From assembly GCF_009862265.1 (NCBI RefSeq), contig NZ_WWGX01000104.1:186183-250182 (forward strand): a stretch of 64,000 nucleotides of DNA. Direction: 5' to 3'. How positions within the stretch are numbered: the first letter of the stretch is position 1; every line of letters begins with the position of its first letter. Shown in pieces: positions 9,390 through 46,720 of this stretch. The notes beneath the pieces were generated by a model. It saw only the letters and a list, made by a program, of their open reading frames with translations, was not told the origin of the DNA and searched no databases. A program made the translations under genes and the position numbers. Source of the DNA: Streptomyces sp. SID8352. GTDB lineage: Bacteria; Actinomycetota; Actinomycetes; Streptomycetales; Streptomycetaceae.

Positions 9390-10088
9390 ATGAACGCGAT
9401 CAGACTCCTGCTCGTCGACGACGACCCCCTCGTGCGGGCCGGGCTGTCCTTCATGCTGGGCGGTGCCGACGACATCGAGGTGGTCGGGGAGGCCGCCGAC
9501 GGCCACGAGGTCGGGGCGCTCGTCGACCGCACCCGGCCCGACGTGGTCCTCATGGACATCCGCATGCCGGCGGTGGACGGACTGACCGCAACCGAACGGC
9601 TGCGGGGGCGTGCGGACGCGCCGCAGGTGATCGTGCTCACCACCTTCCACGCCGACGAGCAGGTGCTGCGCGCCCTGCGTGCCGGAGCCGCCGGGTTCGT
9701 CCTCAAGGACACCCCGCCCGCCGAGATCATCGAGGCGGTGCGCCGGGTCGCGGCCGGGGACCCCGTGCTGTCGCCCGCCGTGACCCGACGGCTGATGGAG
9801 CGGGTGGCCGGGAGCGCGGCCGACACCCGCCGCGAGCGCGCCCGTGAGCGCATCACCGCGCTCAACGAGCGCGAGCGCGAGGTCGCGGTTGCGGTCGGCC
9901 GGGGACTCGCCAACGCCGGGATCGCGGGCGAGCTGTTCATGAGCGTCGCCACGGTGAAGACCCATGTCTCCCGCGTCCTGGCCAAGCTCGGCCTGGACAA
10001 CCGCGTCCAGATCGCCCTCCTCGTCCACGACGCCGGTCTCCTCGACGGCACCCCGCACGACGAGGGCCCGCACGGCACCGCCCGCTGA
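9390..10088 (+). CDS. NarL/LuxR-family response regulator
   Basis: 232 aa from ATG 9390. Receiver domain: acidic pocket VDDD near residue 10, phospho-acceptor Asp56 in LMDIRMP, Thr in VLTTF and Lys in FVLKD. A linker of about 60 residues leads to a LuxR-type HTH (about 160-215): ALNEREREVAVAVGRGLANA followed by LFMSVATVKTHVSRVLAKLG. It probably acts as the output of the upstream kinase. The final residues (HDEGPHGTAR) are not part of a domain. There is no strong ribosome-binding site (GGTGGGGCC precedes ATG). Confidence 0.92.
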   Translation: MNAIRLLLVDDDPLVRAGLSFMLGGADDIEVVGEAADGHEVGALVDRTRPDVVLMDIRMPAVDGLTATERLRGRADAPQVIVLTTFHADEQVLRALRAGAAGFVLKDTPPAEIIEAVRRVAAGDPVLSPAVTRRLMERVAGSAADTRRERARERITALNEREREVAVAVGRGLANAGIAGELFMSVATVKTHVSRVLAKLGLDNRVQIALLVHDAGLLDGTPHDEGPHGTAR

Positions 10089-30089: not shown

Positions 30090-30988
30090 GCAGTTTCGCT
30101 TGGATCAGTTGGTCGTTGGTCCGGGTGTGCCGTTGACTGATGCGCAGTGGGCGCGGATCGACCCGTTGCTCCCGGACCGGACGCCGAAGCGGGGTGGCCG
30201 CTGGCGGGACCATCGTGAGGTGATCGACGCGATCGCCTTCAAGTTCCAGACCGGTACCCAGTGGGTGCACCTGCCGGAGGGGTACGGCAACTGACGAGGT
30301 CTCTGCAGCTGGCTGCGGACGTGGGCCGTCGACGCCACGTGGGAGCGGGTGTTCACTGCCCTGGCGGCTCAGGCCGACGCGGACGAGGACCTCGGCTGGG
30401 CCGTCTCTGTCGACTCCACGATCGTGCGGACCCACCAGCACGCGGCCGGGGCCCGTAAAATGGGGCCCGGCCGACGAATCCGGCGACCACGCCATCGGCC
30501 GCTCCCGCGGCGGACTGGCCACAAAGATCCATCTCGCGGCCGACGGCGATGCCGGCCCCCGCGTTCGTCCTCACCGCCGGTCAGGCCGGTGATGCACCCG
30601 CCTTCACCGATGTCATGGCCCGCCGCCTGCGCGTTCCCCGCCGGCGAGGCCGACCCCGCACCAGGCCGGACCTGGTCCTGGCCGACAAGGCGTACTCCTC
30701 CCGCGCGATCCGCGAGCACTTGCGCAAGCGCGGCATCCGGGCAGTGATCCCCGTCCCCGCGGACCAGCGCGGGCACCGGCTGCGTCGGGGCAGCCGCGGC
30801 GGCAGGCCACCTGCCTTCGACCGCGAGACCTACGAGCAGCGCAACACCGTCGAACGGTGCATCAACCGTCTGAATCAGTGGCGGGGCATCTCCACCCGCT
30901 ACGAGAAGACCGCCACCATCTACCTGGCCGGTCCACATCGCGGGCATCTTCCTCTGGTCCGCCCGATGATCCAAACGAAACTGCCTAG
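30086..30988 (+). mobile_element. 903-bp IS5-family insertion sequence with broken transposase
   Basis: The ends are inverted repeats CTAGGCAGTTTCGCTTGGATC and its right-hand counterpart ending ...GAAACTGCCTAG. The transposase reads LDQLVVGPGVPLTDAQWARI to YGN, then an in-frame TGA where Trp is expected (30292-30294), then TWERVFTALAAQADADEDLG with DSTIVRTHQHAAGARKMGP, a frameshift near 30465, and AFVLTAGQAGDAPAFTDVMA through RNTVERCINRLNQWRGISTR, with a further shift near 30930. All DDE segments survive but four lesions make it inactive unless complemented. The target appears to be CTAG. Confidence 0.85.
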
Positions 30989-31105
30989 CAGCCAGAAGCT
31001 CTGCTGCGTCTCCGCCGCGGCAGCTCAACGCCAGCAGGCAGAAGCGGTTTCCTGCCCCGAGACGTCGGCCGCCCGGGTCGGAGGCTTCGGCGGCATCATC
31101 CGGGA

Positions 31106-32329
31106 TCAGCCGAGGAAGGCCGGGAGGGCGAAGCGGCGGGCCAGCTTTTCGCCGTCGTCTTTCGCACTTTCGGCGTTCAGTGAGTAGACGACCGTGCGTG
31201 ACAGCTGACGGTCGCCCGCGATGACCGTGTGGTAACCGGGGCGGGAGCCTGTCTTCGCCCAGATGATGGTGCCGCCGCCGAGGGCGAGACGCTGGAAGCC
31301 CATGCCGAACTGGCGGTCGCCGTCGTACGCGACCTGGCCCGCGGGCAGGCTGAGCATGGCGTCCAGGAGCGGGGCGGGCAGCAGGGCGCCGGAGAAGAGC
31401 CCGGTCAGCAGACGTTCCAGGTCGGCGGTGGTCGAGATCATGTCGCCGGCTGCGCGGCGGTCCACCATGTTCCACTCCGTCACGTCGACGCGGTGGCCGT
31501 CGACCTGTGCGTACGCTCGGTTGTGGACGCCGTGCACGAACGGGTCGCCGGGGCTGGGGAAGCCGGTGTCCCGCATGCCCAGGGGGCGCAGTACGCGGAT
31601 CTGCGCCTGGTGGGCGTACGTGTCCTTGGCAACGCTCTCGATGAGGAGGCCCAGGACCGTGTAGTGGATGTTGGCGTAGCGCTGGACCGTGCCGGGGGCC
31701 GACAGGGAGCCGCCGGCCAGGGAGGCCGCCACGACCTGGCGGGGGGTGAGGGTGCGGAAGCGGTTGGCGTACAGCTCCTCGTCGGTCTCGCCGAGGCTCG
31801 CACCGTCGCGCAGGCCGCTGGTGTAGTCGAGGAGCTGGCGGACGGTGGGGATCCGGTCGGCGGGGAAGCCGGCGGGGAAGAGGCCGGGCAGGTAGCGGTC
31901 GGCGCGGGCGTCGAGTGCGACCTTGCCGTCCGCGACCAGGCTGAGGACAGTGGCGGCTGTGACGATCTTGGTGACGGAGCCGGCACGGAAGCGGGCGTCG
32001 GGCCGCGCGGGGGCCTGGGTGACGCGGTCGCGGATGCCGGCCGAGCCGGCCCAGGTCTCGGTGCCGCCGACCCTGATGAGGGCGGCCGAGACGTCGTCGT
32101 CCGGTACCCCTTCCAGGGCCTGCTGGAGCGCCTGGACGCCGGAGCTGGGGGTGGGGGCACCGGCGGCCGTGACGTGGGTGGGGGGTGTCGGGGCGGCGGC
32201 CAGCGCGGTCCCGCTGAGCGGGGTGAGGGTGGCGGCGACGAGGAGGGCGGCAATGGCGATGCGGCGGCCGGCTTCACGGGGTGACTCCTGAGAGGTGGGG
32301 TGTCGTGCGCCGTTCGGGACGGGGACCAT
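31106..32329 (-). CDS. Secreted serine hydrolase, beta-lactamase/D-Ala-D-Ala carboxypeptidase family
   Basis: 407 aa from ATG 32329. A signal-like segment (GRRIAIAALLVAATLTPLSG, cleaved near ALAAA) precedes a class C beta-lactamase-type domain: S118-V-T-K121, Y218-A-N220 and KTG in IIWAKTGSRPGYH. These three motifs define DD-peptidases and related esterases acting on the cell wall. The 20 residues before the signal are polar and lack a good ribosome-binding site. A strong site (AGGAG) instead precedes GTG 32277, which is out of frame by one base, suggesting a recent indel at the start. It is isolated between IS elements. Confidence 0.8.
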   Translation of the reverse strand: MVPVPNGARHPTSQESPREAGRRIAIAALLVAATLTPLSGTALAAAPTPPTHVTAAGAPTPSSGVQALQQALEGVPDDDVSAALIRVGGTETWAGSAGIRDRVTQAPARPDARFRAGSVTKIVTAATVLSLVADGKVALDARADRYLPGLFPAGFPADRIPTVRQLLDYTSGLRDGASLGETDEELYANRFRTLTPRQVVAASLAGGSLSAPGTVQRYANIHYTVLGLLIESVAKDTYAHQAQIRVLRPLGMRDTGFPSPGDPFVHGVHNRAYAQVDGHRVDVTEWNMVDRRAAGDMISTTADLERLLTGLFSGALLPAPLLDAMLSLPAGQVAYDGDRQFGMGFQRLALGGGTIIWAKTGSRPGYHTVIAGDRQLSRTVVYSLNAESAKDDGEKLARRFALPAFLG

Positions 32330-32734
32330 CCTCGTGAACGGGGCCGCTCTGGCGGATCGTCTGCCCGGGGGAGAGCACACCCCGAGATCCGTGCGGGAGC
32401 CAGCCGCGGAACCCCTACGGGACAGAGGGGAGTGTGGCAGGGTTGCCCGGCTTGATACCCGGGATCTCCCGACGCAGCGGACCATGGCTGCGTTCAGCGT
32501 CGTCACGACCGTACCCGATCCGGAGTTGTGCGAGGACTTGAGCTCCTGGAGGACCGCGCCGGCACGCCCTGGCCAACGTCGCGGTGACCTGGATCGACCA
32601 CCCCCAGATGCCCGCCGACCTTCGCGACATCCTCGCCGACGCCCGGCCCGTGCCCGTCGGCGCGTGGCGTCACGATGTCCGGGCGGGAAGCGTGACGGTC
32701 CCCGCCCGGACAACCCGGCACGCTACTTGTCGGC
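32330..32734. other. Gap with a possible gene fragment
   Basis: 405 bp between the hydrolase start and the solo IS end. A plus-strand piece (32575-32720) reads ANVAVTWIDHPQMPADLRDI and then LADARPVPVGAWRHDVRAGS, protein-like but lacking a start and cut by the IS fragment. I cannot identify it. Confidence 0.35.
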
Positions 32735-32810
32735 TCGATCCGCGCCCACTGCGCATCAGTCAACGGCACACCCGGACCAACGACCAACTGATCCAAACGA
32801 AGCTGCCTAG
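32735..32810 (-). mobile_element. Solo left end of the 30086-30988 insertion sequence, inverted
   Basis: 76 bp matching the first 76 bp of that IS on the opposite strand: CTAGGCAGCTTCGTTTGGATC through LDQLVVGPGVPLTDAQWARI. Homology stops abruptly at 32735. The outer CTAG abuts the next IS at 32811. Confidence 0.85.
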
Positions 32811-33703
32811 GTTCTGTCGTCAAATGTCACGCCCGCATCAGGAGTGATGCGAGCGTGACGGCTGCTTCGTAGGACTCGGCGGTCTTGTCGTACCGGGTGG
32901 CGATGCCGCGCCACTGCTTCAAGCGGTTGAAGCACCGTTCTACGACGTTGCGGTGCTTGTAGACCTCGCGGTCGAAGGCCGGCGGGCGGCCGCCTCGGCG
33001 GCCGCGTCGGGACCGGTTGCGGACCTGGTCGGCCCGCTCGGGAATCGTGTGGGCGATGCCGCGGCGGCGGAGCCAGGTGCGGATCGCCTTCGAGCTGTAG
33101 CCCTTGTCGCCCAGGACGTGGTCGGGCCGGACCCGGGGCCGCCCGGGTCCGATCCGGGGCACCCGGATCGCCTCCATCACGGCGGTGAACCGGGTGCAGT
33201 CGTTGGTGTTGCCGCCCGTCACGACGAAAGCGAGCGGACGGCCCCGCCCGTCCCGTCGCAGGCCAGGTGGATCTTGCTGGTCAGACCGCCTCGGGGCCGA
33301 CCGAGGGCCGGGTTGGGGAGCCCCCTTTTCGGGCCCCGGCCGCGTGCTGGTGCGCGCGGACGACCGTGGAGTCGACCGACACCAGCCACTCGACGTCGCC
33401 GGCCGCGTCCGCTTTCGCCTGGGCGGCCCGCAGCATCCGGTCGAACGTGCCGTCCGCCGCCCACCTGCGAAATCGCGTGTGCAGCGTGGCCCACGGCCCG
33501 TACCGCTCGGGCACGTCCCGCCAGGCCGTCCCGGTGCGGAACTTCCACACGATCCCGTTCAGGACCCTGCGGTCGTCCAGCCGCTTGCGTCCCCGCAACG
33601 ACTCGGGCAGCAGCGGCCGGACGAACTCCCACTCGGCATCAGACAGTTCATGGCGACGTATCACGACACCATGATCCACCAGGCAAGATCATTTGAAGAC
33701 ACC
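32810..33703 (-). mobile_element. IS5-family insertion sequence (IS427-like)
   Basis: About 890 bp. The left end GGTTCTGTCGTCAAATG and right end (read inward) GGTGTCTTCAAATGATC share TGTC(G/T)TCAAATG. It carries the transposase listed separately and abuts the solo IS end directly, showing stacked insertions. Exact outer bases are uncertain by a few nucleotides. Confidence 0.75.
32827..33679 (-). pseudogene. IS5-family transposase, two frames with slippery site
   Basis: The first frame (33679-33281) reads RRHELSDAEWEFVRPLLPES to VDSTVVRAHQHAAGARKGG and stops. At CCCGAAAAGGGGGC a -1 shift gives GPKRGLPNPALGRPRGGLTS with KIHLACDG, as in IS427-group elements that use programmed frameshifting. 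A second shift near 33250 is then required to enter the last frame (33222-32827): VTGGNTNDCTRFTAVM to RNVVERCFNRLKQWRGIATR. The first shift may be programmed. The second looks like a mutation, so the transposase is probably inactive. Confidence 0.7.
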
Positions 33704-37225: not shown

Positions 37226-37615
37226 TCAGCCCGTCAGTGAGGCCAGGGCCCTGGTCAGCCGCTCGGCGGCCTCGCCCGCGACCGGGTCCAGCTCCGCGCG
37301 TCCGGTGACCTGGACCAGCAGGGCCGGGTCCATCGCCTCCACGACGACGCCCTCGGGCACGGCGCGCACCGTGACGTTGCAGGGCAGGAGGAGCCCGATC
37401 TGCCGCTCGACGCCCAGCGCGCGGTGGGCCAGGGCGGGATTGCAGGCGCCGAGGATGAGGTAGTCCTCCATCTCCTCGCCGAGCTTCTCCTTCATCGTGG
37501 CCCGCACGTCGATCTCGGTCAGGACGCCGAAGCCCTCCTCGGCGAGCGCCGCGCGGACCCTCTCCACCGTCTCCGTGAACGGGGTGTCGAGCGTGACGGT
37601 GATCCCGAACTCCAT
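37226..37615 (-). CDS. DUF302-family protein
   Basis: 129 aa from ATG 37615 (GGAG 8 nt upstream). MEFGITVTLDTPFTETVERVR, FGVLTEIDVRATMKEKLGEE, YLILGACNPALAHRAL, VGLLLPCNVTVRAV-like and VVVEAMDP are the DUF302 hallmarks, including the conserved Cys of GACNP and of PCNV. The family is often linked to stress or metal response; the biochemical role is unknown. The full length matches the family. Confidence 0.9.
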   Translation of the reverse strand: MEFGITVTLDTPFTETVERVRAALAEEGFGVLTEIDVRATMKEKLGEEMEDYLILGACNPALAHRALGVERQIGLLLPCNVTVRAVPEGVVVEAMDPALLVQVTGRAELDPVAGEAAERLTRALASLTG

Positions 37616-37943: not shown

Positions 37944-38525
37944 TCAGCGGTCGTGCGCCAGCAGCCGGTGCACGGCCTCCGTCGCGAAGTCGGACACGGT
38001 GTCCAGCCCGTCGCCCTGGTCGATCCTGCGGATGCAGGCGTCGACGACGGCCTGGAGCACGGCGACGGTCAGCTCCGGCTGGGGCCGCCCCAGGTCGGTG
38101 ACGATCCGGGCGAGGATCTCGTGCAGGGAGGTGTGCAGCTCCCGCACGCGTTCCCGCGCCGACGGGGAGAGCGTGGCCCGGGAGAGGGAGGCGCGCCAGC
38201 CGTGGGTGCCGCGCGCGGCCTGCTCCAGGTTGGCCCTGACGTAGCCGGCCGCCCGCTCCTGCGGCGAGGTCCCGGCCGCGGCGGCGCGCTCCACGGCCTC
38301 GATCCAGACGGGGAACTCGCGGGTCACGACGAGTTCGAGCAGGTCCTCGATGGAGTCGAAGTAGCGGTAGATGCTGTTGCGGGCCATCCCGGCCCGCGCG
38401 GCGACCGCGCCCGCGGTGAGGCCCTCCACGCCGTCTTCCCTCAGCACGGCCTCCGCCGCGTCGATGAGCTGGGCGAGCCGCTGGGCCCGGTGCTCACGGA
38501 CGCTGCCTGCCTCGATCCTGGGCAT
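37944..38525 (-). CDS. TetR-family regulator
   Basis: 193 aa. The N-terminal HTH reads LIDAAEAVLREDGVEGLTAG and AVAARAGMARNSIYRYFDSI (about 20-58), followed by an all-helical ligand domain. ATG 38525 is preceded by GGAGAG. It diverges from the MMPL transporter gene 148 bp away, with a perfect 9-4-9 inverted repeat between. It is very probably a repressor of the transporter relieved by an exported lipid or toxic compound (inference). Confidence 0.9.
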   Translation of the reverse strand: MPRIEAGSVREHRAQRLAQLIDAAEAVLREDGVEGLTAGAVAARAGMARNSIYRYFDSIEDLLELVVTREFPVWIEAVERAAAAGTSPQERAAGYVRANLEQAARGTHGWRASLSRATLSPSARERVRELHTSLHEILARIVTDLGRPQPELTVAVLQAVVDACIRRIDQGDGLDTVSDFATEAVHRLLAHDR

Positions 38526-38618
38526 GCTCTCCGCTCCGCCTCCGACGCCATGTCGTCCCGGCCCAATCTATCCCCTGTCCGCGGGGCGTCCGGGACCCCG
38601 TGCTAGCTTGACCCGCAC

Positions 38619-38640
38619 TTGGAGACACCCCTGTCTCCAA
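38619..38640. promoter_or_regulatory. TetR operator between regulator and MMPL gene
   Basis: TTGGAGACA-CCCC-TGTCTCCAA, perfect 9-bp arms. TTGACC at 38608-38613 could be the rightward -35, placing the operator between -35 and the transcript start. ATG 38674 is 33 bp beyond. Confidence 0.8.
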
Positions 38641-38673
38641 CATCTGTCCGTCCTCTCCTGCCGAAGGTCACCG

Positions 38674-41247
38674 ATGCCGCCGATCCCCTCCCGCATGCTC
38701 CGACGTCTCCTGGCGTCGAGGAGGAGCGCCGCCGCGGTGGTGGCCCTCTGGGTACTGGTCGCGGGCCTCCTCGCCGGACTCGCCCCCGCTCTGGACTCCG
38801 TCGAGGACAACGCCTCCGCCAACCTCCCGCCCGCCGCCTCGGACTCCATGAAGGCCCGCGACCTCATCCGGGCCGAGCTCCCGGGGCAGGACGTGACACC
38901 GGCGGTCATCGTGGTGCACGGGCGGGGCGAGCGGGCCGAGGCGGAGGCCGGCGCGGCCGTGGCACGCATCACCGGGGCCCTGTCGGGGCCCGGCCGGCCC
39001 GACCGGGTCGTCGAGGTCGTCTCCGCGGCGACCGCGCCCGGAGGCGGGGCGGACCTGGTCTCGCGGGACCGCCGGACCCAGATGATCATCGCCCCCCTGT
39101 CCGGAAGCCCCACGGACGAGTCCTTCCGGGAGGCCGTCGACGCGGTGCGGACCCTGGCGGCCGACCGCGCGGGACCGACCGAGGTCGCCGTGACCGGCCC
39201 CGCCGGGATCGCCGCGGACACCGTGAAGGTCTTCGGCGGCGGGGACAAGGTCCTGCTCCTGGGCACCGTCCTGCTCGTCCTGCTCACGCTCCTGGTCATC
39301 TACCGGTCGCCCCTGATGGCCCTCGTCCCGCTCCTCGCCGTCGGCGTGGCGATGCGCGTGTCGGAGGCGGCCGGGGCGCTCCTCGCGGACGCCGGGATCA
39401 TCACGGTCAGCTCCCAGACCGCCTCGATCATGACCGTGCTGCTGTTCGGCGTGGGAACGGACTACGCGCTGATCATCACCGCCCGCTACCGCGAGGCGCT
39501 CCTCGACGAGCCGGACCGTCCGCGCGCGATGCGGACCGCGGTGCGCCGCACCGCCGAGTCCGTCCTCGCCAGCGCCTCCACCGTGGTGCTGGCCATGTTC
39601 GCCCTGCTGGCGGCCGTCTCCCCGGCGCTGCGCGGCTTCGGCCCCTACCTCGCCCTCGGCGTGGCGGTCATGGCGGCGGTCGCCTTCACCTTCGTCCCGG
39701 CCCTGATCCTCCTGCTGGGCGGGGGCGTCTTCTGGCCGGGCGGCGTGGACCGGGCCGCCGCCCGGGGCCGCGGCGCGGGACTCTGGCACCGGGTCGCCGC
39801 CCTGGTCGGCCGGGCGCCGGTACGCGTCGTCTCGGCCGTCCTCGTCCTGCTCGTGGTGATGAGCGCCGGCCTGCTCGGCTACCGGGAGAGCTACAACACC
39901 CTCAGCGGCTTCCGGACCGCCACCGAGTCCGCGCAGGGACAGCGGCTCATCCAGGCGCAGTTCGGGCCCGGCGAGACCGCACCGGCCACCGTCGTCGTCC
40001 GTTCCGGCGGCGACCTGCGCTCCGGGACCGCCGCCGGTGCCGTCGCCGACGCGCTGGCCGGCACCGACGACGTCGGCCGGGTCGGCGCACCGCGCTTCGG
40101 CGACGGGGGCAGGACCGCCTTCTACGACGTCGTCCTCGACCTCGACCCGTACGGCTCCGAGGCACTGGACACGGTCGACCCGCTCGGCCGGGCCGCGCGG
40201 ACCGCCGCCCACGACGCGGGCGTGGCGGACGCCACGGTGCTCGTCGGCGGGGAGACGGCGCGGACCGCGGACATCCGCTCGGCCCTCGACCGCGACACCA
40301 CCCTCGTGGCGCTCCTGATCCTCGCCGTCGTCACCGCGGTCCTCGGACTCCTGCTGCGCTCGCTCCTCGCCCCGCTCTACCTGGTCGCGACGCTCGTCCT
40401 GTCCTTCCTGGCCACCCTGGGCGCCACCACCTTCTTCACCCTGACCGTCCTCGGCGACGAGGGGATCGGCAACAGGGTCACCGCGTACATCTTCGTCTTC
40501 CTCGTCGCGCTCGGCGTCGACTACAACATCTTCATCATGAGCCGGTTCAAGCAGGAGCTGCGCACCCTGCCCCCGGCGCGGGCCATCGGCGCCGCCGTCA
40601 CGCGCACCGGCGGCGTCGTCTCCTCCGCGGGGCTCATCCTCGCGGCGACGTTCGCCGTCCTCATGACCCAACCGATCCGCGAGCTCTTCCAGTTCGGCTT
40701 CGCCATGGCCTTCGGTATCCTCCTGGACACCTTCGTCATCCGGCCCCTCCTGGTCCCCGCCGTGGTCCGTCTCCTCGGCGACCGCGCCCTGTGGCCCACG
40801 CGCCCCGGGACACCGCCCCCGCCCGCCGACGCCGCTCCGCCCGCGTCGGACGCACCGGCTCCACCGGCCGCCGGACCCGCCGGGGCCACCGCCGTCGCCG
40901 TCGCCGTCGCCACCGGTGCCACCACCGGACTCCTGCTGCGCCTCTTCACCTGGGTCGCCGTCGTGGAGGCGTGCACCTGGGCGGGCCTGCTGGCCGGGAT
41001 GTACGTCAAGTACGTCCCCGAAACCACCGAACTCGGCGTCCGGATCTTCGGCGCGCTCCACGGCGCCGCCTTCGTCGCCTACGTGCTCCTGACCGTCCTG
41101 GTGGCGGTCCGGCTCAAGTGGCGGCTGGGCCGGACGACGATCCTCGCCCTGCTGGCCGCCGTACCGCCCTTCATGACCGTGGCCTTCGAGGCGTGGGCCC
41201 GCCGCACCGGCCGCCTCCCGGGCCCGGCGGCCGCCCCGCCCCGATAG
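38674..41247 (+). CDS. MMPL-family transporter fused to a C-terminal DUF3817 domain
   Basis: 857 aa from ATG 38674 (GAAGG 6 nt upstream). It is an RND/MMPL permease with two repeats, each a first helix, a large extracytoplasmic loop and a five-helix bundle. Proton-relay-type motifs are seen in FGVGTDYALIITARYREAL and FLVALGVDYNIFIMSRFKQEL. After an Ala/Pro linker (about 715-750), residues about 755-850 form a separate four-helix DUF3817 domain (LLRLFTWVAVVEACTWAGLL, KYVPETTELGVRIFGALHGA, AFVAYVLLTVLVAVRLKWRL). DUF3817 is normally a stand-alone protein of about 100 aa. Expected function is lipid or drug export under TetR control. Confidence 0.92.
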   Translation: MPPIPSRMLRRLLASRRSAAAVVALWVLVAGLLAGLAPALDSVEDNASANLPPAASDSMKARDLIRAELPGQDVTPAVIVVHGRGERAEAEAGAAVARITGALSGPGRPDRVVEVVSAATAPGGGADLVSRDRRTQMIIAPLSGSPTDESFREAVDAVRTLAADRAGPTEVAVTGPAGIAADTVKVFGGGDKVLLLGTVLLVLLTLLVIYRSPLMALVPLLAVGVAMRVSEAAGALLADAGIITVSSQTASIMTVLLFGVGTDYALIITARYREALLDEPDRPRAMRTAVRRTAESVLASASTVVLAMFALLAAVSPALRGFGPYLALGVAVMAAVAFTFVPALILLLGGGVFWPGGVDRAAARGRGAGLWHRVAALVGRAPVRVVSAVLVLLVVMSAGLLGYRESYNTLSGFRTATESAQGQRLIQAQFGPGETAPATVVVRSGGDLRSGTAAGAVADALAGTDDVGRVGAPRFGDGGRTAFYDVVLDLDPYGSEALDTVDPLGRAARTAAHDAGVADATVLVGGETARTADIRSALDRDTTLVALLILAVVTAVLGLLLRSLLAPLYLVATLVLSFLATLGATTFFTLTVLGDEGIGNRVTAYIFVFLVALGVDYNIFIMSRFKQELRTLPPARAIGAAVTRTGGVVSSAGLILAATFAVLMTQPIRELFQFGFAMAFGILLDTFVIRPLLVPAVVRLLGDRALWPTRPGTPPPPADAAPPASDAPAPPAAGPAGATAVAVAVATGATTGLLLRLFTWVAVVEACTWAGLLAGMYVKYVPETTELGVRIFGALHGAAFVAYVLLTVLVAVRLKWRLGRTTILALLAAVPPFMTVAFEAWARRTGRLPGPAAAPPR

Positions 41248-41506: not shown

Positions 41507-42424
41507 TCAGAGCCCGGCCGCCTCGTACAGGCCGTCCATCTCGTCGGCGATCTCCTCGGGGTCGCGGCCCTCCGCGGTCCGCACCGCGCGCGCCTTCGAC
41601 GCGAACTCCGGCCCGAGTTCCTCGTACCGCGCCCGCCAGGCCTCCGCGCGCTCCTGCCAGTACGCCACGCACTTGTAGTGGTGCGCCGGGAGCCCCCGCT
41701 CGTGCCGCAGGTAGCGCCGCACCGCGCGGTTCAGCCGCCCCTCGGTCGCGACCCACACATAGGTGTCGTGGCCCGGGGCCAGTTCGCGCAGGGCGTCGAG
41801 GAGGCGGCTCTCACCGACACCGTTGCCGCTGCCGTCCAGCCAGAGGTAGTCGACGCCCCCGACACCGGCGCGGACACGGTGGGCGGGGCCGCGGACCTCG
41901 ACGAGGAGGGTGGTGCGCACCTCGTCGGCGGTCAGCTCCGCGAGCCGCAGCGCGGCGGGCAGCCCCGGTTCGTCGGCGACGAGGAGCTGCCGGGTGAGGG
42001 CGCCGGGCCGCTCGTAGAGGCCGCAGGGCGGATTGACGCCGACGGCGTCCCCCGGCCGGGCCCGCCGGGCCCAGGCCGCGGCCACCCCGCCGTCGTGCAC
42101 GACGAAGTCCACGGTGAGCCGGCCGGGCGCGTGGTCGCGGACGGTGTAGACGCGCATGGCGGAGGGCTCCACGCCGTCGGGGTACTCCCATCCGCGCAGG
42201 GTGGTGATCCGCGGGAGGCGGACCTCGTCGCCGGGCCGGTCGGGGAAGAACATCCGGACGTACTCGTCGCCGGTCCCGGTGGTGGGGTAGTCGCGCAGAT
42301 CGCTTCCGCCGAAGCGCACCCGCACCATCCCCGGTCCGGTCCGCTCCACGCCGGTCACCTCGGCGCGGTGGATGCGCGGGACGTAGTCCGCGGGCAGGCG
42401 GGCGGCTGGCGTGTCGTCGGCCAT
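41507..42424 (-). CDS. Siderophore-interacting protein (FAD-dependent ferric reductase)
   Basis: 305 aa. FAD-binding R-x-Y-T motif in MRVYTVRDHAPGRLTVDFVV (about 91-110), HDGGVAAAWARRARPGDAVG, then the SIP C-terminal NAD(P)H region with LLVADEPGLPAALRLAE, YVWVATEGRLNRAVRRYL and KCVAYWQERAEAW. It releases iron by reducing ferric siderophores in the cytoplasm. It is last in the leftward operon, 87 bp after the binding protein. ATG 42424 follows AGGAGAG. Confidence 0.93.
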   Translation of the reverse strand: MADDTPAARLPADYVPRIHRAEVTGVERTGPGMVRVRFGGSDLRDYPTTGTGDEYVRMFFPDRPGDEVRLPRITTLRGWEYPDGVEPSAMRVYTVRDHAPGRLTVDFVVHDGGVAAAWARRARPGDAVGVNPPCGLYERPGALTRQLLVADEPGLPAALRLAELTADEVRTTLLVEVRGPAHRVRAGVGGVDYLWLDGSGNGVGESRLLDALRELAPGHDTYVWVATEGRLNRAVRRYLRHERGLPAHHYKCVAYWQERAEAWRARYEELGPEFASKARAVRTAEGRDPEEIADEMDGLYEAAGL

Positions 42425-42511
42425 GCTGTCTCTCCTGGTTCGGGGGCGGTGTGCGCACCGCCCCTGCGGAACGGGCGCGCCCGGCGGTCGCCCGGGGCGC
42501 GCCCGGGGGCG

Positions 42512-43537
42512 TCAGAAGTCGTCGAAGTCCTCGACGGCGTCGGCGATGCCGTTCACGAAGCTCGTGTAGGTCAGCGCGAAGCCGAACCGCTCGGCGAGGT
42601 TGCCGTCGATCCAGTGGCCGTCGGCGACCGCGGGCACGCGCCGCAGCAGCGGATCCGGTTCGAGGTCCTTCTCCGCCTTGTAGACGAGGAGCACGTCCGC
42701 GTCGCCCAGGGCGCTCACGGCGTTCTCGTAGCTGAGCATGTGCCCCGAGCCCGACTGGTTGGGCGGGGCGCTGCTGATCTCCTCGTTCTCGAGGATCGTG
42801 AAGCCGAGCGCGGGGAGGACCACCTGGTAGACCGACTCGTCGGAGATGACGGTGAAGTTGTCGACGGGGGCGTGGATGACCGCCGCGCTCCTGCCCTCGG
42901 CGTAGTCGCCGATCCTCGCGCGCGCGTTCTTCACCGCCTTGTCGTACCCGGCGATCGCCCGCTCGGCGCGGTCGGTGCGGCCGAGCAGGGTGAGCTGGTC
43001 GGTCATCGCGACGAACGGGTCGTCGACGGTGGCCCCCTTGACGTCGAGGCCGTCGTTGACGGCGAGGACCGGGGCTATCTCGTCGAGCTTGAAGTTCTCG
43101 CCCTCGTAGTACTTCCACCAGCCGGCGCCGACCACGATGAGGTCCGGATCGTAGGAGGCGATCTCCTCCCGGTTGAGGTCGAACGCCGAGTTCTTGAGGT
43201 GGGCGGCGTCCTTGTCGACCAGGGGCGACAGCGGGCTGTCCTGGCCGTGGGCGGTGGCCACGATCGGGTATCCGGCGAGGAGCGCCATCTCCAGCCCGCT
43301 GCGGCTGTCGAGGACGACGACGCGCCGCGGGTCGGCGGGGAGCGTCGCCGTGTAGCCCTCGTAGGCGAAGTCGATGGTCCGGGCCGGGGCGTCGCCGCCG
43401 GCCGCCTTCGCGTCCGGTCCGGAGGAGCATCCGGAGAGCAGGCCGACGGCCAGGAGGGCGCAGAGCCAGGCGGGGGCGCCGCGGCGCGCGGCCGGCCGGA
43501 GGCCCGCGCGGGCCGGGGAGGGGAGTGCAGACGGCAT
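42512..43537 (-). CDS. Iron-siderophore ABC transporter substrate-binding lipoprotein
   Basis: 341 aa. Signal with lipobox LSGC (Cys37). FecB/BtuF-type domain: RRVVVLDSRSGLEMALLAGY, REEIASYDPDLIVVGAG, ENFKLDEIAPVLAV, RSAAVIHAPVDNFTVISDES and DADVLLVYKAEKD. It captures a ferric siderophore outside the membrane. The gene is 78 bp after the ATPase gene; AAGGAA precedes ATG 43537. Confidence 0.92.
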   Translation of the reverse strand: MPSALPSPARAGLRPAARRGAPAWLCALLAVGLLSGCSSGPDAKAAGGDAPARTIDFAYEGYTATLPADPRRVVVLDSRSGLEMALLAGYPIVATAHGQDSPLSPLVDKDAAHLKNSAFDLNREEIASYDPDLIVVGAGWWKYYEGENFKLDEIAPVLAVNDGLDVKGATVDDPFVAMTDQLTLLGRTDRAERAIAGYDKAVKNARARIGDYAEGRSAAVIHAPVDNFTVISDESVYQVVLPALGFTILENEEISSAPPNQSGSGHMLSYENAVSALGDADVLLVYKAEKDLEPDPLLRRVPAVADGHWIDGNLAERFGFALTYTSFVNGIADAVEDFDDF

Positions 43538-43615
43538 GGGGTTCCTTGAGGATGCTCGAAGGGCCCGCGTGCGGGACCACGTGGTGCGTGAGGCGGGGGC
43601 GCCTCGTGTTCCACG

Positions 43616-44548
43616 CTAGGCAGGGGACGGGACGTGCGGGGGACGCCCCGCGTCGCGTTCGGGACTCCGGGCGGACGCGGTGGCGGCACCGCGGTCGCGC
43701 CCGAGCGGGACGACCGTGGGCGTCCCCGTCACCGGGTCCGGTACGACGCGGCAGGCGAGGCCGAAGACCTCGGCGACGAGTTCCTCGGTGACGACGGACT
43801 CCGGCGGCCCCTCGGCGGCGATCCGGCCGTCCTTCATCGCGATGAGGTGGGTGCCGTAGCGGGCGGCGTGGTTGAGGTCGTGCAGGACCGCGACGAGCGT
43901 GTTGCCGGCGAGGTGCAGATCGGTGAAGAGTTCCAGCAGCTCGATCTGGTGCGCGATGTCCAGGAACGTGGTCGGCTCGTCGAGGAGCAGCAGCGGAGTC
44001 TCCTGCGCGAGCACCATCGCCACCCACACGCGCTGGCGCTGGCCGCCGGACAGTTCGTCGACGAGCTGCGCCGACAGGTCGGTGACGCCGGTCGCGGCCA
44101 TGCTCTTCAGCACGGCCTCCTCGTCCGCGTCCGTCCACTGCCGGATGAAGCCCTGGTGGGGGTAGCGACCGCGGGCGACGAGATCGGCGACGGTGATGCC
44201 GTCGGGGGCGAGCGAGGTCTGCGGAAGCAGGCCGAGGCGCCGCGCGACCTCCTTGGCCCGGTACGACGTGATGGCCCTGCCGTCGAGCAGGACGGCGCCC
44301 TCGCGCGGACGGATGAGCCGGGAGAGCGCGCGCAGGAGGGTGGACTTGCCGCAGGCGTTCGGTCCGACGATCACCGTGAAGGACCGGTCGGGGATGGTGA
44401 CCGAGAGCCGCTCGGAGATCAGCTTCCGGTCGTAGCCGATGCTCGCCCGCTCGACGCGCAACTGCGGTGCCGGTGCTGCCGGTGCCGGTGCCGGTGCTGT
44501 GGTCGGGGGCGTGGTCGTGGTCGGGGCGCCGGGATCGGTGGATGTCAT
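43616..44548 (-). CDS. Iron-siderophore ABC transporter ATPase
   Basis: 310 aa. Walker A GPNACGKSTLLRALSRL, Q-loop LLPQTSLAPDGITVADLVARGRYPHQG, signature LSGGQRQRVWVAMVLAQ, Walker B LLLLDEPTTFLDI, switch His in VLHDLNHAARYGTHL. FecE/FepC type. The N-terminal 28 residues are a Thr/Pro/Ala-rich extension. It lies 31 bp after the second permease. The final ~40 residues are polar. Confidence 0.95.
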   Translation of the reverse strand: MTSTDPGAPTTTTPPTTAPAPAPAAPAPQLRVERASIGYDRKLISERLSVTIPDRSFTVIVGPNACGKSTLLRALSRLIRPREGAVLLDGRAITSYRAKEVARRLGLLPQTSLAPDGITVADLVARGRYPHQGFIRQWTDADEEAVLKSMAATGVTDLSAQLVDELSGGQRQRVWVAMVLAQETPLLLLDEPTTFLDIAHQIELLELFTDLHLAGNTLVAVLHDLNHAARYGTHLIAMKDGRIAAEGPPESVVTEELVAEVFGLACRVVPDPVTGTPTVVPLGRDRGAATASARSPERDAGRPPHVPSPA

Positions 44549-44579
44549 GCTCGTGCCTTCCGGGACGGGGGTGTGGTGG

Positions 44580-45662
44580 TCACGGGCGCTTCCTCGCCTC
44601 GTGCACGAGGAGCCAGATCAGGTACCCGCCGCCGATGACCACCGTGACCGTGCCCACCGGCAGCATCACCGGAAGGACGTGGAGGGCGACGTGGTCGGAG
44701 GCCGCGAGCAGCGCAGCCCCCATGAGGGCGGAGGTGGGCACCGGGACGCCCGGCGCGCGGGTGAGGCGGCGGGCGATCTGCGGCGCGGCGAGCGCCACGA
44801 AGGAGATCGGTCCGGCCGCGGCCGTGACGACCGCGACGAGTCCGACCGAGAGCAGCATCAGGGTGAGGCGGGCGGACTCGACGCGGACCCCCAGCGCCCG
44901 CGCGGCGTCGTCGCCGAGTTCGAGCTGCCGCAGCGGGCGGCACAGCACCAGCGTCACGGCGAGGAGGAGCACGACGAGGAGAGCGCCGGCCCCGGTCTGC
45001 TGCCAGGTGATGCCGTTCAGCGATCCGGCCCCCCAGACCGCGGCCACCAGCGCGGCGTCCAGGTCGGCGGTGAGCGTCAGCCAGGTGTTCAGCGAGCCCA
45101 GCGTCGCCGAGACCGCGATCCCCACGATGATGAGCCGGAACCCCCGCACCCCGCGGGTGAAGGCGAGGAGGTAGACGGCCGCCGCCGTCGCGACGCCTCC
45201 GATCAGCGCCCCGGCCGCGACGTCGAGGTAGGTGCCCCCGAGGACGATGATCACGACGAGCGCGCCCGTGTACGCGCCCGCAGAGAAGCCGAGGATGTCC
45301 GGACTGGCCAGTGGATTGCGGGTCAGGGACTGGAACACGGCGCCGCTGGCCCCGAGGGCGGCGCCGAAGGTGATCGCGGCGAGCGCGCGCGGCATCCGCC
45401 ATTCGACGACGACGGTACGGGTGAAGTCGTCCGCACCGGAGAAGAGCGCGTGTCCGACCTGCGCCAGGCTGAGCGGGTACTCCCCGCTCACGAGCCCCAG
45501 CACCCCCAGGACCAGGCAGACGCCCACGAGGACGAGGCACACCACGCCGACGCGGACATCGAGGCGGAGCCGGACGCCCCGGACGTTCCGGTGCAGCATC
45601 CGGCGGCCGGGGTCCACCCTGGCAAAGGACGCCGCGGACGGGTCGGGGGACGAGGCGGTCAC
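44580..45662 (-). CDS. Iron-siderophore ABC transporter permease (FecD type)
   Basis: 360 aa with about nine membrane segments. Characteristic RMPRALAAITFGAALGASGA, VFQSLTRNPLASPDILGFSA and GPISFVALAAPQIARRLTRA. The GTG start overlaps the upstream permease stop by 4 bp. It pairs with that permease to form a heterodimeric channel. Confidence 0.94.
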   Translation of the reverse strand: MTASSPDPSAASFARVDPGRRMLHRNVRGVRLRLDVRVGVVCLVLVGVCLVLGVLGLVSGEYPLSLAQVGHALFSGADDFTRTVVVEWRMPRALAAITFGAALGASGAVFQSLTRNPLASPDILGFSAGAYTGALVVIIVLGGTYLDVAAGALIGGVATAAAVYLLAFTRGVRGFRLIIVGIAVSATLGSLNTWLTLTADLDAALVAAVWGAGSLNGITWQQTGAGALLVVLLLAVTLVLCRPLRQLELGDDAARALGVRVESARLTLMLLSVGLVAVVTAAAGPISFVALAAPQIARRLTRAPGVPVPTSALMGAALLAASDHVALHVLPVMLPVGTVTVVIGGGYLIWLLVHEARKRP

Positions 45663-46720
45663 AGGCCGCTCACCTTCCTCCGGCGGACCAGCACGATCAG
45701 CACCGGAGCGCCCACCAGCGCGGTGACGATCCCGACGGGGATCTCCGCCGGGCGCATCACCATCCGGCCGGCGATGTCCGCCACGAGCAGCAGGATCGGG
45801 GCCAGGGCGAGCGTGTAGGCGAGGATCCAGCGCTGGTCGGGGCCGGCCATCCAGCGTGCGACGTGCGGCACCATCAGGCCGACGAAGCCGATCGGACCGG
45901 CGAGCGCGGTGGCGCCGCCGGCCAGCAGGGTCACGGCGACGACCACGAGCACGCGGGTGCGCAGGACGTTCGCGCCGAGCGCGGCGGCCATGTCCTCACC
46001 CAGCGCGATGGCGTTCAGGGGCCGCGCCGTGAGGAGGGCGATCACGAATCCCGCGGCCAGGAAGGGCAGTACCGGCCACACCAGGTCCAGGCTCCGCCCG
46101 ACGACGGAGCCGGCCCCCCAGTTGCGCATGCTGTCGAAGGCCCGGGGATCGAGGAGTGTCAGGGCACTCGTGAGACCGCTGAGCACCGCCCCGAGGGCGA
46201 CTCCCGCCAGGACGAGGCGCAGTGGATCCGCGCCGCCCCGGCCGGCGGCGCCGATGACGTAGACCGCGAGCGTCACGACCAGGGCGCCGGCGAACGCGAA
46301 CCACACGTATCCGGAGATCGACGCGACCCCGAACACCCCGATGCCGACGGCGACGGCGAACGCGGCACCCGAGGCAACGCCCAGGATGCCCGGATCGGCC
46401 AGCGGGTTGCGCGTGAGCGCCTGGATCAGCCCGCCCGCGACACCGAGTGAGGAGCCCACCGCGATCGCGATCACGGTGCGGGGCACACGCAGATCGCGGA
46501 CCACGAAGTGGTCCTCCGCACCGGTGGGGGAGAACACCGCCTGCCGGACCACGGAGAGGGGGATGTCGCGCGATCCGACGGCGACGCTGAGGACGGTCAC
46601 CACCGCCAGTACGGCGAGGATGACGAGGAGCAGGAGGGTGCGGGAGGCGTTGCTCCCGGCGACCCCGTGCGGGGGCCGCGCGCCGGTCACCTCGACGGAG
46701 CGCGGCGGGACGGACATCAT
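45659..46720 (-). CDS. Iron-siderophore ABC transporter permease (FecC type)
   Basis: 353 aa. FecCD fold with DLRVPRTVIAIAVGSSLGVA, GGLIQALTRNPLADPGILGV and GPIGFVGLMVPHVARWMAGP. First transporter gene of the operon, 144 bp downstream of the AraC gene. ATG 46720 (second ATG at 46717) has GGAGTG about 10 nt upstream. The gap holds a 21-bp-spaced direct repeat that may be the AraC target. Confidence 0.94.
   Translation of the reverse strand: MMSVPPRSVEVTGARPPHGVAGSNASRTLLLLVILAVLAVVTVLSVAVGSRDIPLSVVRQAVFSPTGAEDHFVVRDLRVPRTVIAIAVGSSLGVAGGLIQALTRNPLADPGILGVASGAAFAVAVGIGVFGVASISGYVWFAFAGALVVTLAVYVIGAAGRGGADPLRLVLAGVALGAVLSGLTSALTLLDPRAFDSMRNWGAGSVVGRSLDLVWPVLPFLAAGFVIALLTARPLNAIALGEDMAAALGANVLRTRVLVVVAVTLLAGGATALAGPIGFVGLMVPHVARWMAGPDQRWILAYTLALAPILLLVADIAGRMVMRPAEIPVGIVTALVGAPVLIVLVRRRKVSGL

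Follow-up and report, generated by a model that had tools for sequence, protein, structure and literature searches.

An MMPL-family exporter gene of Streptomyces sp. SID8352 carries a C-terminal DUF3817 domain

The window analyzed here is a stretch of 64,000 nucleotides from Streptomyces sp. SID8352. Its forward strand carries a gene at 38674-41247 whose 857-residue product is an MMPL-family (RND) exporter that bears a complete C-terminal DUF3817 domain, as delimited by the open reading frame, Pfam, NCBIfam, and alignment of the start with homologues. The reading frame is open throughout 38371-41247 (+), and 38674 is the likely start because the homologues begin there and the first possible start overlaps a divergent TetR gene. 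The transporter part comprises residues 1-708 (38674-40797, +; Pfam, alignment, and Foldseek) and is followed on the same strand by an Ala/Pro-rich, poorly conserved linker at residues about 709-754 (40798-40935), modeled with low confidence at 720-738, and by the DUF3817 domain at residues 755-844 (40936-41205). An earlier note, made from the letters alone, had placed a complete DUF3817 at residues about 755-850 after an Ala/Pro linker, and both the profile match and the linker composition agreed with it. Its span of 40810-41247 contains the domain; it also covers the tail and the greater part of the linker.

MMPL (PF03176) was matched in two stretches at E 1.2e-113 (379.9 bits against a Pfam cut-off of 20.5), and the domain search proposed in the earlier note detected PF12823 over positions 1-85 of its 85 (E 1.9e-22, 80.3 bits against a cut-off of 27). 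The NCBIfam model TIGR03954 was also matched (E 7.6e-20, 71.5 bits against 33.25), whereas the protein missed the cut-off of TIGR00833, the ActII subfamily (401.6 against 874.7 bits). A wrong reading of the sequence, through chance or a profile artefact, is extremely improbable and was excluded because both curated models scored above their cut-offs and four other fused proteins also matched the full profile. MMPL proteins carry an Asp-Tyr pair in each of their two central membrane repeats, and these pairs serve as a proton relay. In the transporter part such motifs were found at residues 263-264 and 616-617 and were invariant in eight aligned sequences, the window's included.

Upstream, on the reverse strand, lies the divergent TetR-family regulator (37944-38525, 193 residues, PF00440 at 4.2e-13), and downstream of it a DUF302 gene (37226-37615, reverse strand, PF03625 at 2.9e-24) whose place in the unit is uncertain. 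A perfect 9+9 inverted repeat at 38619-38640, 33 bp before the MMPL start, is a candidate TetR operator. By eye, convergent neighbors at 41507-46720 resembled siderophore uptake genes (flavin reductase-like, binding protein, ATPase, and two permeases), and several transposase-like open reading frames were seen at 30100-33679, some 5-8 kb upstream of the cassette.

An AlphaFold2 model of the DUF3817 domain built from 47 sequences (pLDDT 92.9, pTM 0.82) consisted of two long and two short helices, at protein residues 744-780, 787-813, 820-827, and 834-844, in agreement with the four-helix unit described in the earlier note. Six residues, L30, H54, G55, Y61, W74, and P90, with a His-Gly pair among them, were invariant in 47 DUF3817 rows that included the window's and the other fused sequences. 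The loop between the first two helices contains no lysine or arginine and two acidic residues, while the loop that follows helix two has four lysines or arginines and no acids, as does the C-terminal tail. Positively charged loops of membrane proteins generally face the cytoplasm. By this rule the second loop and the tail, and hence also the start of the domain, are predicted to lie inside, and a cytoplasmic start and end fit what the linker would require. The same reasoning suggests a re-entrant hairpin formed by the two short helices.

Among solved structures, the domain model gave a best Foldseek E of 1.4 and a best Z of 8.1, the latter to a designed bundle, and a sequence search of the PDB with the domain returned no match at E 1; no solved relative of the domain was thus found by sequence or by a significant fold match. 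Kinship with cytochrome oxidase subunit III was considered and rejected: several such chains stood among the top structural rows, none of them significant, and a scan of family members showed no such family among the 25 of 43 matches listed. The full-length fusion model (pLDDT 75, pTM 0.57) allowed no domain docking to be read; it matched MmpL4 (9u4t_A) with a Foldseek E of 1.5e-25, a TM-score of 0.57/0.64, and an rmsd of 12.3. In sequence, too, the nearest solved proteins were MmpL4 (6.2e-58) and MmpL5.

The fused form was found in five records: the window, the genomes G270, G633, and G834, and a Streptomyces cavourensis plasmid (NZ_CP101398.1). A split form was present in three genomes of two families (G116, G596, and G714), in which the MMPL stop and the DUF3817 start overlap by 4 bases, reading ATGA in G116 and G714 and GTGA in G596. 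Within the window's genus, 5 of 392 genomes matched the fused domain at E 1e-6, comprising three fused loci (the window, G270, and G834), one split locus (G116), and one remnant (G176); a smaller sample, sharing at least part of its genomes with the first, gave 4 of 295. In the remnant (L036, 6119-6451), a match to TetR residues 3-78 abuts a match to only about the final 37 residues of DUF3817, and no MMPL match was found on its 12.6 kb contig. Matches to the fused domain were far from confined to the genus: at least 177 of 394 sampled genomes of the class matched at 1e-7, all but two of them, among the matches listed, outside the window's genus. At the loci fetched from this search, DUF3817 was its own gene except in the window and G633, which are fused; G596 showed the split form, and in its genus 2 of 118 genomes matched at 1e-33 (G596 and G714). 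A class search with MMPL at E 1e-120, in which the five best candidates per genome were scored, matched 3 of 296 genomes (the window's own, G515, and G396), with G596, G116, and G270 absent, presumably because they had not been drawn.

The window's genome carries two further, apparently stand-alone DUF3817 copies, and among 37 same-genus genomes, this one included, no other DUF3817 match fell in an open frame longer than 385 codons, which supports the statement that DUF3817 is usually encoded alone. Further candidate fusions were rejected by eye: in G336, G044, G430, and G019 the extra frame looked antisense or upstream of the ordinary start, and in G042 a weak match (23.8 bits) lay in a 725-codon frame that read as a branched-chain permease. 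The fusion of these known parts is real and rare.

The DUF3817 tree (98/96) and the MMPL tree (100/99) both placed the fused rows in one clade; each tree held four fused rows, G834 being left out. Compared with G270, G633, and S. cavourensis, the window's protein was 85-86% identical in the domain, 77-78% in the transporter, and 46-51% in the linker, with dN/dS values, obtained by a simple counting method on high-GC genes, of 0.27-0.33, 0.38-0.43, and 0.50-0.69, respectively. The three closest fused pairs gave another picture: identity of the domain (94-95%) was hardly better or worse than that of the transporter (94-97%), and dN/dS was higher in the domain (0.29-0.45) than in the transporter (0.17-0.30), on few differences. 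The sequences point to an ancestral state that was probably two separate genes and to one fusion event, in that order, probably kept under constraint.

We consider it quite improbable that the fusion is a near-neutral accident in which a stop codon was lost between overlapping genes and the tethered domain became a passenger. Such an accident would need only a small change, given the 4-base overlap in the split relatives, and it would agree with the rarity of the fusion in the genus (three in 392), with the decay already seen in G176, and with the closest fused pairs, which show no clear advantage of the domain over the transporter in conservation. However, the fusion has been kept in five records, and in the comparisons with the window the domain is more conserved than both the transporter and the linker.

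The regulator travels with the cassette. A TetR gene stands head to head with the MMPL gene in all five fused and all three split loci; in the six genomes other than the window's, its protein shares 66-80% identity with the window's TetR, and on the S. cavourensis plasmid it is annotated as TetR/AcrR. With up to three mismatches allowed, the 7.78 Mb genome held no such site other than the palindrome at 38619-38640, and only 1 of 300 base shuffles was as good. Its position and core recur, by eye, in the homologous loci. A strict shared operator was nevertheless rejected: the repeat is perfect in the window and weaker in G270, G633, G116, G596, and G714, where 20, 32, 23, 186, and 299 of 300 shuffles, respectively, were as good. 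In G596, a second MMPL gene, 35% identical, lies directly beyond the TetR gene (L076, 9903-12056).

The earlier note had also proposed a survey for separate but adjacent MMPL and DUF3817 genes, and such genes were found both overlapping and just upstream of related MMPL genes. On plasmids of Rhodococcus ruber and R. gordoniae, genes for a histidine kinase, a response regulator, DUF2871, DUF3817, and MMPL follow one another on one strand, with the separate DUF3817 gene 46 bp (R. ruber) and 30 bp (R. gordoniae) upstream of the MMPL gene and overlapping the DUF2871 gene on both plasmids. Over residues 41-709, the Rhodococcus transporter shares 58% identity with that of the window. G116 combines the two layouts, with TetR-MMPL-DUF3817, a related kinase, a regulator, and, further off, a DUF2871 gene within about 8 kb. 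Two other close relatives have rows of kinase, regulator, and MMPL, followed by DUF2871 in G396 (MMPL 53% identical to the window's) and by none in G515 (58%); no DUF3817 match was found in the 14-15 kb fetched around each, suggesting that DUF3817 is dispensable for some close MMPL relatives. G418 has a kinase, a regulator, and DUF3817, with an FtsX-like permease gene beyond the kinase; the 11 kb fetched contained no match to MMPL.

In the window, neither the Rhodococcus kinase nor DUF2871 was matched, and DUF2871 had no match in the whole genome; the Rhodococcus response regulator has a 39%-identical match at 9399-10052, although about 28 kb from the cassette. DUF2871 recurs beside or near related MMPL genes (L098, 3951-4858; L078, 7380-7838; L035, 2201-2824), and one copy matched COX1 below the cut-off of that family. 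Passages of one paper link DUF2871 to cytochrome domains in model-generated sequences, in agreement with an earlier structural hypothesis (PMC12804078). We tentatively raise the idea, which we regard as rather doubtful, that a plasmid-spread actinobacterial type of MMPL exporter under two-component or TetR control has two dedicated membrane subunits, DUF3817 and DUF2871, through which export might be coupled to heme, quinone, or redox state; the redox part of this idea derives from the weakly COX1-like DUF2871 copy and from the published cytochrome link.

Away from MMPL genes, DUF3817 keeps varied company. Taken in the wide sense, it occurs in nearly every sampled genome of the class (381 of 394). 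Sixteen stand-alone neighborhoods (L079-L094, about 4-5 kb on each side), hand-chosen mostly from the better-scoring matches of the class search and thus not random, were searched by tblastn; 15 had no MMPL match, and one had a divergent gene matching the window's MMPL about 1.2 kb from DUF3817. A Pfam scan of 60 selected neighbor proteins, two of them from the MMPL locus L076, found MMPL twice, taken as the L089 and L076 proteins. Among the g43 loci in L044-L071, the DUF3817 gene directly followed purQ in six of seven, the seventh being G596, and in L082, the same place as L049, the two genes overlap by 4 bases. This purQ context, seen without a transporter in a different genus of the class, was observed at L048, L049, L051, L055, L058, and L065 (and L108). 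A methylmalonyl-CoA mutase-like gene stood close to the DUF3817 type most frequent in the window's genus at all 13 same-genus loci fetched for that type (L001, L009, L010, L012-L016, L018, and L020-L023); a MarR-like gene was also seen nearby, by eye, in the window's own genome.

Other exporters also adjoin DUF3817. Plasmids of R. pyridinivorans and Dietzia carry a tight row of an MFS exporter, TetR, and DUF3817 (L100, 3852-6267; L101, 3870-6285); the two rows are near identical and were counted as one case. Six plasmid records matched DUF3817, and in all five annotated ones, which are few and related, DUF3817 is fused to, adjoins, or lies one gene from an exporter; the sixth, from Nonomuraea (L102), had no match to the MMPL or MFS queries. 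In L104-L113, MFS-like genes (26-28% identity) occurred at 2 of 10 loci, L106 and L111, on the opposite strand to DUF3817 in L111, and no fusion of DUF3817 with MMPL or MFS was seen.

With an MMPL match in one of 16 stand-alone neighborhoods, DUF3817 as a general MMPL partner was rejected for the family, and its partnership with this MMPL clade falls short of accounting for the whole family. The proposal in the earlier note that DUF3817 is an accessory subunit of MMPL exporters was supported for the clade in which it is fused to, overlaps, or lies just upstream of the transporter gene, and was not supported for DUF3817 proteins at large. An unlikely though credible alternative is that DUF3817 has a separate membrane job, for example as a chaperone, sensor, or small-molecule carrier, and that fusion or overlap only equalizes expression and leaves MMPL transport unaffected. 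Its near universality in the class and its varied neighbors (purQ, with the 4-base overlap, methylmalonyl-CoA mutase, and MFS plus TetR) would be expected on this account; its recurrence in three arrangements with one MMPL clade speaks against it, as does G596, where the MMPL-linked copy is distinct from a second, 56%-identical DUF3817 copy elsewhere in the genome. These observations are also compatible with a general role in the membrane that several partners have taken up. The MMPL-linked DUF3817 rows formed no single resolved clade, and three changes were needed on the DUF3817 tree; the link may or may not go back to a single origin.

With moderate confidence we favor a functional partnership in which transporters of this MMPL clade use DUF3817 as an accessory membrane subunit, because separate, overlapping, and upstream gene forms exist beside the fused one. 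The window's protein would then be a single-chain exporter, a proton-driven MMPL (RND) transporter carrying its own accessory membrane subunit. A flexible cytoplasmic linker would tether DUF3817, whose predicted topology is two membrane spans and a short C-terminal helical hairpin. The domain probably packs on the membrane domain of the transporter, where it may stabilize the transporter or tune substrate access or proton coupling. The divergent TetR probably controls the fusion gene by binding the palindrome, and the unit resembles an inducible efflux cassette, also found on plasmids, with a presumed role in efflux.

Small proteins acting on RND pumps have precedents. AcrZ is a small membrane protein that binds the RND pump AcrB; the likeness to the window's system is an analogy only, involving a different small protein and a Gram-negative pump. 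The mycobacterial MmpL4 and MmpL5, which resemble the window's protein in sequence and fold, were solved together with small partners, MmpS or AcpM according to the entry titles, whereas here DUF3817 is covalently joined. MmpL3, only a weak match (5.3e-22), is described in PMC6593404 as an MMPL transporter with two accessory proteins, and like the proposed system it is governed by dedicated accessory proteins. In Corynebacterium glutamicum, Cg1874 has the same DUF3817 domain, unfused; a G93D change arose in more than one evolved strain but made no growth difference on reconstruction, according to the passages on Cg1874 in PMC10105947. These passages already propose DUF3817 as a transporter subunit or modulator, from DUF3817-MFS architectures, and do not mention MMPL; DUF3817 is also named in a table of PMC12546842. 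For MMPL, the fusion was found to be neither ubiquitous nor already described, as no published account of an MMPL-DUF3817 protein was found among the literature matches listed.

The fused and separate-neighbor forms suggest that pumps of this kind use the small membrane protein as a functional component. The three arrangements of DUF3817 with one MMPL clade (fused, overlapping, and upstream) provide a concrete, testable partner for a domain of unknown function. If this partnership is true, a covalently attached membrane partner would join the known accessory proteins of MMPL exporters.
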